Source: Bacteroidia bacterium
GTDB taxonomy: Bacteria; Bacteroidota; Bacteroidia; Flavobacteriales; Flavobacteriaceae
Assembly: GCA_030432635.1 (NCBI GenBank)
Contig: JAUIMB010000006.1
Location: 1 to 64,000, forward strand
Length of the DNA stretch: 64,000 nucleotides
Direction: 5' to 3'
Position 1 is the first letter of the stretch. Each line of letters begins with the position of its first letter. The notes beneath the pieces are model-generated. The model did no database searches, was not told where the DNA came from, and saw only the letters and a list, made by a program, of their open reading frames with translations. The translations under genes and the position numbers were made by a program. Below, one piece after another: positions 32,210 to 42,157 of this stretch.

Positions 32210-32557
32210 CTATTCCTTATCTAATTTTTTGGTTAGGGTAAATCCTGTAAACAAGCCAATACCAGCCATTAAGAAAATAGTTCCAGGAAATGCCACTTCT
32301 TCCTCAACACCAAGATTGTAATGTAAAATTGAGGCGATAAAAATCCCAACACCAATACCCATGAGAAGTAAGGCAATATTGAGGATGAGCACTTTCCATA
32401 TTGGAGCGGTGTGACTTTTGCCTTTTACAAAAATACTGGCATCTGCACCTTTTTCAATCAGTGCCAAACGCTCTTTATTACGTGTTGAAAAATACAAGTA
32501 AAATACACCAAATATTGCTCCTACAATAACAGGCATGATTATTAGTTCTGATCCCAT
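32210..32557 (-). CDS. DUF6249-type small membrane protein
   Basis: 115 aa with three hydrophobic helices (about 5-23, 53-73 and 87-107), a basic cytoplasmic segment RNKERLALIEKGADASIF between the first two, and a KKLDKE tail. This layout matches the small DUF6249 proteins that, in Bacteroidota, often sit beside ECF sigma genes (recollection). Function unknown. It has its own terminator and is divergent from the ECF sigma gene with a matching ECF-type promoter. Confidence 0.75.
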   Translation of the reverse strand: MGSELIIMPVIVGAIFGVFYLYFSTRNKERLALIEKGADASIFVKGKSHTAPIWKVLILNIALLLMGIGVGIFIASILHYNLGVEEEVAFPGTIFLMAGIGLFTGFTLTKKLDKE

Positions 32558-32602
32558 AGTGTTTCGTTTTTAATTGATTAATTTTATGTGTTCATGGTTT
32601 AT

Positions 32603-32629
32603 GACGACAACTTTTGGGTTATGGTTACA
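32603..32629 (-). promoter_or_regulatory. ECF-type promoter of the DUF6249 gene (TGTAACC-N16-CGTC)
   Basis: Minus strand: TGTAACC (complement of 32623-32629), 16-nt spacer, CGTC followed by ATA (complement of 32603-32606 and beyond). It is 46 nt before the DUF6249 ATG. The elements and spacing are identical to the divergent sigma-gene promoter. Confidence 0.65.
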
Positions 32630-32658
32630 GATACATTCAATTATTTTTGTTCGCCACT

Positions 32659-32685
32659 TGTAACCTTTAGGTTAAAAATATCGTC
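32659..32685 (+). promoter_or_regulatory. ECF-type promoter of the sigma factor gene (TGTAACC-N16-CGTC)
   Basis: TGTAACC at 32659-32665, 16-nt spacer, CGTC at 32682-32685 followed by ATAT. AAC/CGTC elements at this spacing are typical of ECF sigma promoters. The -10 ends only 10 nt before the ATG, so the mRNA would have almost no leader. Confidence 0.65.
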
Positions 32686-32695
32686 ATATGCTAAA

Positions 32696-33286
32696 ATGAC
32701 CACTAACGACGACCAAATAATCATCAATCGAATTCTGGAAGGCGATACGCAGGCTTTTGCAGTATTGGTCGACCGTTATAAAAGTTTGGTCTTTACAGTG
32801 ACGATGCGAATGCTTAAACATAAGGAAGAAGCCGAAGAGGTTGCCCAAGATACCTTTATAAAGGTGTTTGGGTCTCTTAAAAATTTTAAAGGCGACTCCA
32901 AGTTGTCTACTTGGTTGTATCGAATTGCATATAACTCCAGTTTAGATCGCATAAAGAAAAACAAGAAGCATTTGAATGATGTGGAAATCAACCAGTTTAC
33001 CACACATCAAATCAAAACCTTGGATAATGCCTTGGATAAGCTTCAACAAGATGAGCAATCTAAAGCAATACAGCGTTGCATTGGGCAATTGCCTAGTGAG
33101 GATAGTATCTTGTTGACCTTTTATTACTTTGAAGAGTTGACCTTAAAGGATATTTCAGAGGTGATGGGCATTACCACAAATTCAGTTAAGGTAAAGTTGT
33201 TTCGAAGCCGAAAAAGATTGGCGACGATTTTGAAAGCACAGTTAGAACCAGAAATTATTGATTATTATGAACGAGAACGTAGATAA
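32696..33286 (+). CDS. ECF-type RNA polymerase sigma factor
   Basis: 196 aa. Sigma region 2 is clear (AFAVLVDRYKSLVFTVTMRM ... EEVAQDTFIKVFGSL ... KLSTWLYRIAYNSSLDRIKK, about residues 20-90), as is region 4 (LPSEDSILLTFYYFEELTLKDISEVMGITTNSVKVKLFRSRKRL, about 140-185). The ORF track begins at 32588, but the first 36 codons cross the promoter; ATG 32696 (MTTNDDQ) is the proper start. Overlap of 20 nt with the next gene indicates a sigma/anti-sigma pair. Autoregulation is inferred from the promoter. Confidence 0.93.
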   Translation: MTTNDDQIIINRILEGDTQAFAVLVDRYKSLVFTVTMRMLKHKEEAEEVAQDTFIKVFGSLKNFKGDSKLSTWLYRIAYNSSLDRIKKNKKHLNDVEINQFTTHQIKTLDNALDKLQQDEQSKAIQRCIGQLPSEDSILLTFYYFEELTLKDISEVMGITTNSVKVKLFRSRKRLATILKAQLEPEIIDYYERERR

Positions 33287-33680
33287 ACAACTTGATGAAC
33301 TCTCAAAAAAAGTGTTGCTAAAAACCAGAGTTGAGCAACCAAGCTTTGATTTTACGAACAACGTCATGTCAAAAATCGAGAGTTTTAGCGCTTCAAGTAT
33401 TACGACTTACGAGCCCTTAATTTCAAAGCGGTCTTGGATTCTTATGGGAATTGCCCTTATGTCAATTTGTGGCTTTGCCTTTTTTGGAACTTTTAATGCC
33501 AAGGACAGTTGGTTAGACGCTTTAGGACTTGATAGGTTTTTGGAATTTAGTATTCCAAATCCATTGTCCAACCTAGAATTTTCCAATACTGTGTTTTATG
33601 CCTTATTGTTATTTTCAATAATGCTTTGTATACAAATACCAATACTAAAAACATATTACGATAAGCGAATTCAACTTTAA
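33267..33680 (+). CDS. Probable membrane anti-sigma partner of the ECF factor
   Basis: 137 aa. A cytoplasmic N-terminal segment (MNENVDKQLDELSKKVLLKTRVEQPSFDFTNNVMSKI) precedes two transmembrane helices (about 53-71 and 108-126). Position right behind, and overlapping, the sigma gene is the standard place for an anti-sigma factor, but there is no zinc-binding HxxxCxxC motif and no FecR domain. The ORF track starts at TTG 33258; ATG 33267 is more likely. The stop interlocks with that of the convergent membrane gene (TTAA). Confidence 0.65.
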   Translation: MNENVDKQLDELSKKVLLKTRVEQPSFDFTNNVMSKIESFSASSITTYEPLISKRSWILMGIALMSICGFAFFGTFNAKDSWLDALGLDRFLEFSIPNPLSNLEFSNTVFYALLLFSIMLCIQIPILKTYYDKRIQL

Positions 33681-42030: not shown

Positions 42031-42157
42031 ATGTATAGAGGTTGGTTGTTTAAAGTGAGACGACATGAAAAAAATAAAGTTACAAAAAAACCAAGGGGGA
42101 ATAATCAAATGGGTTCAATTTTCCAGAATATCAATAACGGGATTTTAAATGAGAGGG

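Follow-up and report, generated by a model that had tools for sequence, protein, structure and literature searches.

Does a single ECF sigma factor read both sides of the spacer that separates its own gene from a divergent DUF6249 gene? The question is raised by the window, the whole stretch of 64,000 nucleotides of Flavobacteriaceae DNA analysed here. The preliminary description of this DNA had noted an identical promoter-like sequence on both strands between the two genes, and had proposed that the sigma factor drives its own operon together with the small membrane protein. Here we report the two sites, their conservation in relatives, their coordinated divergence across the phylum and the linkage of the genes that they precede. 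On comparative grounds, we estimate at about 90% the probability that one ECF sigma factor acts through the spacer in both directions, serving its own sigma/anti-sigma operon on one side and DUF6249 on the other.

Genes flanking the spacer

The sigma gene (32,696..33,286, + strand) encodes a protein of 196 amino acids that comprises sigma70 regions 2 and 4 only, with Pfam matches to Sigma70_r2 at residues 24-91 (3.6e-17) and to Sigma70_r4_2 at residues 123-175 (6.3e-15). This domain content is that of an ECF (group IV) sigma factor, as is the promoter with AAC at -35 and CGT at -10 (TGTAACC-N16-CGTC) that stands before its own gene. The hallmarks of ECF systems are a -35 AAC, a -10 CGT, a co-transcribed anti-sigma factor and autoregulation (PMC8103513; also PMC3817407). 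Relatives of the protein in the PDB are SigH, SigW and RpoE, and its scores fell short of the NCBIfam equivalog cut-offs for SigW (129.9 bits vs. 209), SigX (84.3 vs. 194) and SigM (104 vs. 190). The genome itself carries about 20 ECF genes. In a phylogenetic tree, 68 of 73 DUF6249-linked sigma factors grouped in one supported clade (98/86) that contained none of 13 paralogs from this genome. The DUF6249-linked sigma factors are thus largely one lineage, with the placement of the others unsure.

The next gene (33,267..33,680, + strand) overlaps the 3′ end of the sigma gene by 20 nt and encodes a putative membrane anti-sigma factor of 137 amino acids, with a short cytoplasmic N-terminus bearing a PSxDFTxxVM motif and two transmembrane segments. 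The protein lacks the zinc motif HxxxCxxC, and searches of Pfam and NCBIfam with it returned no match. Profile comparison related its family to the genes in the downstream position at distant loci (98%), whose products match relatives or anti-sigma factors with HxxxCxxC (99%); sampled members of these distant proteins gave matches to zf-HC2 or, weakly, to RseA_N. The Flavobacteriaceae form of the anti-sigma factor seems to have lost its zinc-finger helices.

On the other side of the spacer, the DUF6249 gene (32,210..32,557, − strand) encodes 115 amino acids, and its assignment to PF19762 (E = 1.1e-14, 54.7 bits) lies above the curated cut-off of 33. The AlphaFold model (mean pLDDT 79) displays three long helices, and a PDB fold search with this model found no match better than E 3. 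DUF6249 is thus far an uncharacterised protein, predicted to be a small three-helix membrane protein.

Twin sites in the divergent spacer

The sequence TGTAACC-N16-CGTCATA is present on both strands with equal spacing, at 32,659-32,688 (+) and 32,629-32,600 (−), as had been described. The ECF promoter predicted for the sigma operon (32,659..32,688, + strand) consists of a -35 box TGTAACC at 32,659-32,665, a 16-nt spacer and a -10 box CGTCATA at 32,682-32,688. The one predicted for the DUF6249 gene (32,600..32,629, − strand) has its -35 box TGTAACC at 32,629-32,623 and, again after 16 nt, its -10 box CGTCATA at 32,606-32,600. Each -10 box is oriented to its own gene, the sigma ATG lying at 32,696 and the DUF6249 ATG at 32,557. 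The -35 boxes face each other across 29 bp (32,630..32,658), which corresponds to 30 bp from first T to first T; in relatives this distance is mostly 28-36 bp, with a range of 23-97.

Within the window, TGTAAC-N(16-18)-CGTC has three matches, against 0.15 expected from shuffles; the match at 42,059-42,084 (TGTAAC...CGTC) has a spacer one base shorter. Across the 3.5-Mb genome, TGTAACC-N16-CGTC occurs in exactly two copies, both of them in the ECF sigma/DUF6249 spacer. A reversed control pattern likewise occurs twice, so the raw genome count is not probative. Chance is instead excluded by the outward-facing arrangement of the pair within 83 bp together with its conservation, and it is on these grounds that the earlier judgement of an improbable match is borne out.

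Conservation in close relatives

The preliminary description had suggested comparing the same spacer in related genomes. We collected orthologous loci from genome collections (Psychroserpens, Winogradskyella, Subsaximicrobium and others), which yielded 55 distinct spacers. Both sites were present in 53 of the 55, and the gap from TGTAACC to CGTC was always 16 nt. Taken separately, the sigma-side site was kept in 54 spacers and the DUF6249-side site also in 54, and the distal CGTC boxes were no less invariant than the TGTAACC boxes. The exceptions are informative. At locus L033, the -10 box on the sigma side is AGTC. In Subsaximicrobium (G023, L105), the DUF6249 gene has been relocated to another contig and has carried its promoter along as TGTAACC-N16-CGTCATAAGCT, also keeping the downstream ATAAGCT that is typical of DUF6249 promoters. 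DUF6249 is also absent from nine genomes in which the sigma factor has no close ortholog. As a separate observation, one locus (L103, genome G030) has intact twin promoters and a sigma reading frame that is apparently broken after about 96 codons.

Phylum-wide linkage and promoter geometry

We searched for DUF6249 in 248 genomes drawn evenly from the phylum, obtained a match in 76 and examined 70 loci. An ECF gene lay within 1.5 kb of DUF6249 in 67 of the 70 loci, in divergent orientation in 58 and collinear, with DUF6249 first, in nine. We then scanned the divergent spacers with a loose ECF promoter score, each site being scored independently of its partner. This score was devised after some spacers had been viewed and is hence not fully blind; with it, 57 of the 58 divergent spacers scored at least 14 on both strands, compared with 0.8% of dinucleotide shuffles. 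Fifty-three exceeded the best of 1160 shuffles, and one divergent locus (L249) scored no better than shuffles.

At three loci of f17 genomes (L190, L199 and L202), the genes are 750-940 bp apart and a full promoter stands beside each. At five of the nine collinear loci, one promoter of this kind lies 5′ of DUF6249 with none between the genes; no clear promoter of the TGTAACC/CGTC type was found at the other four. The separated full promoters and the single promoter at collinear loci favour shared transcription over a dyad operator. At collinear loci L186, L187, L247 and L250, the frame that holds DUF6249 is longer (about 250 amino acids) and has no clear promoter upstream of the domain.

Coordinated change of the two promoters

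Where boxes differ from TGTAACC or CGTC, they have usually changed on both sides of the same locus. This was the case for CATC (L198, L208 and G063/L134), AGTC (L190, L199, L241 and G045/L131), TGAAACC (L189, L205, L228 and others), GGAAACC (L207) and GCAACC (L203), as well as for a 15-nt spacer (L212, L243 and L253). Over six variable features, the agreement between the two promoters was 5.45 within loci vs. 4.12 between loci, and 0 of 10,000 permutations were as high. With one locus per family (15 families), the agreement was 5.27 within vs. 3.38 between, and no permutation reached the observed value. Matching change on both sides is what would be expected if one sigma factor must read both sites.

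The base changes also track residues of the sigma factor, in correlations that are uncorrected for phylogeny and confounded by it, TGAAACC being found mostly within one clade. Position 3 of the -35 box tracks residue 166, in the region-4 recognition helix: V or I accompanies TGTAACC, and T, A, N or S accompanies TGAAACC or TGCAACC, with L216, L249 and L196 as exceptions. Residue 166 aligns with the serine of the RpoE recognition helix GTVRSRIFRA, which we take to be a -35 contact. Position 1 of the -10 box tracks residue 84, in region 2: D is found mainly alongside CGTC, N alongside TGTC (in three separate groups), and T or S alongside AGTC and GGTC, with L219 and L191-L194 among the exceptions.

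Proposed mechanism and extent of the regulon

We infer that the neighbouring sigma factor reads both sites, that the downstream gene encodes its anti-sigma factor and that the conserved regulon consists essentially of two transcripts. The sigma factor (32,696-33,286) would be held at the membrane by the anti-sigma factor encoded directly downstream. Once released, it would form a holoenzyme that reads the two near-identical back-to-back promoters. The sigma-side promoter would then yield more sigma and anti-sigma factor, giving a positive autoregulation, predicted from the promoter, with built-in negative feedback, while the other would supply DUF6249, the conserved partner dedicated to this lineage of sigma factors. 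Five lines of comparative evidence argue for one sigma factor at both promoters and so support the original proposal: the conserved pair, the coordinated change of its two members, the promoter kept after relocation of DUF6249, the single promoter at most collinear loci and the absence of DUF6249 together with the sigma ortholog.

The motif had also been expected to lead to a larger regulon, an expectation that our genome pattern and profile scans did not sustain, as they gave no further site of comparable strength. A search profile built from 65 related promoters retrieved the DUF6249 site (E = 3.8e-6) and the sigma-operon site (E = 1.9e-5) in the own genome, and its next match was at background level (E 0.37). 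A third exact genome match (C20:200575, TGTAACA...CGTC), 5′ of a carboxypeptidase-regulatory/TonB-receptor-like gene, is missing from the profile matches. Since the genome holds no further strong site, the conserved regulon looks like two transcripts.

It is accordingly unlikely, though the best placed of the alternatives, that the sites are promoters of this sigma factor and also mark a wider conserved regulon. Some relatives do carry additional sites. A full intergenic TGTAACC-N16-CGTC site lies 5′ of class C beta-lactamase-like serine hydrolase genes at three loci (L106 in G022, L108 in G001 and L113 in G023), where the G001 and G023 genes match PF00144 and the G022 gene is a close sequence homolog of that in G001, and at a fourth (L109 in G020) a full intergenic site precedes an alpha/beta-hydrolase-like gene without a Pfam match. 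These hydrolase-like genes are possible accessory regulon members in some species. However, the profile search of the own genome yielded no third site above background, and additional exact sites across the genus were not above the reversed-pattern control.

We regard it as improbable that the two ECF promoters are served chiefly by other sigma factors of the ECF type, or by several, with the neighbouring one among them. Another of the roughly 20 ECF factors of this genome could also read the sites, and the ECF motif SM6 of Flavobacterium psychrophilum could not be assigned to a single sigma factor (PMC9723704), but here site and sigma factor co-occur and co-vary phylum-wide, and something similar stands upstream of just one of the 19 other ECF genes of the genome, where the spacing does not fit. 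Least probable, and rejected here, is a dyad operator for a DNA-binding regulator in place of two promoters: GGTTACA and TGTAACC do face each other as an inverted repeat, yet each half is a -35 box with a fixed spacer and a -10 box, the distance between halves varies (23-97 bp, with full sites beside widely separated genes in f17 genomes), halves are found alone at relocated or collinear genes, and CGTC, the distal box, varies no more than TGTAACC does.

Comparison with known systems and significance

The closest known systems are autoregulated operons of an ECF sigma factor and a class I anti-sigma factor, of the RpoE-RseA and SigW-RsiW type, with which this locus shares a sigma factor of regions 2 and 4 only, a two-gene operon with a putative membrane anti-sigma factor and a promoter (-35 AAC, -10 CGT) that the sigma factor is predicted to read itself. 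It differs from them in that a second, divergent promoter copy serves DUF6249 throughout the phylum, that the putative anti-sigma factor of Flavobacteriaceae has apparently lost the zinc-finger helices and that the conserved regulon is apparently two transcripts. The promoters of Bacillus SigW, SigX and SigM have -35 boxes of the TGAAAC or TGTAAC type and -10 boxes of the CGTA, CGAC or CGTC type, the same type of box and spacing as here, and the closest matches to our sigma factor include SigW models and chains; its NCBIfam scores are nevertheless far under the cut-offs, and both the phylum and the partner gene are different. Within the phylum, motif SM6 of F. psychrophilum is an ECF-sigma motif with a -10 CGT box, as in the sites described here, and one SM6 promoter serves an ECF/anti-sigma operon; unlike our sites, SM6 precedes T9SS and several other genes (PMC9723704).

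Searching the literature on DUF6249, or on TGTAAC in connection with Bacteroidetes ECF factors, found nothing relevant, though published ECF classifications may list this group. The transcription mechanism (AAC and CGT boxes, anti-sigma factor, autoregulation) is textbook. What is new is the partnership with DUF6249 across the phylum, together with a promoter pair that evolves coordinately and a sigma mRNA that is probably near-leaderless. A domain of unknown function is thereby tied to one sigma lineage across a phylum, giving a testable hypothesis for both. Tentatively, at somewhat less than even odds, DUF6249 may be a functional component of a closed phylum-wide ECF signalling loop with no conserved outputs other than itself and DUF6249, the promoter pair being a natural two-sided record of ECF specificity change. 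In such a loop DUF6249 might act, for example, as a membrane effector or as a tuner of anti-sigma activity. Because the two promoter copies in each divergent genome must match the same sigma factor, the loci amount to a natural data set for -35 and -10 specificity and its joint shift with sigma residues 166 and 84, which complements published ECF specificity codes. The spacer is also a compact candidate pair of promoters for work in Bacteroidota, in which genetic tools developed for other phyla frequently do not function.

Predicted leaders of the two transcripts

The sigma ATG lies 10-12 nt past CGTC in all 54 loci measured. At ECF promoters, transcription usually starts 6-9 nt after the -10 box, so the sigma leader would be at most a few nucleotides long and the mRNA is predicted to be, probably, near-leaderless. 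Only a minority of mRNAs in this group lack a leader (5.5% in F. psychrophilum; PMC9723704). The sequence TATTTTTG at 32,642-32,649 (+), which lies between the -35 boxes, matches the Bacteroidetes primary-sigma -7 consensus TAnnTTTG; it could be a source of basal sigma transcription, and it is not clearly conserved. The DUF6249 leader has a predicted length of about 40 nt and holds a conserved element, TTAATCAATTAAAAA (32,567..32,581, − strand), about 10 nt before the ATG. This element has a single exact occurrence in the 3.5-Mb genome, its TAATCAATTAAA core is present in 48 of 54 leaders, and it is possibly an RNA-level or translation-initiation element.
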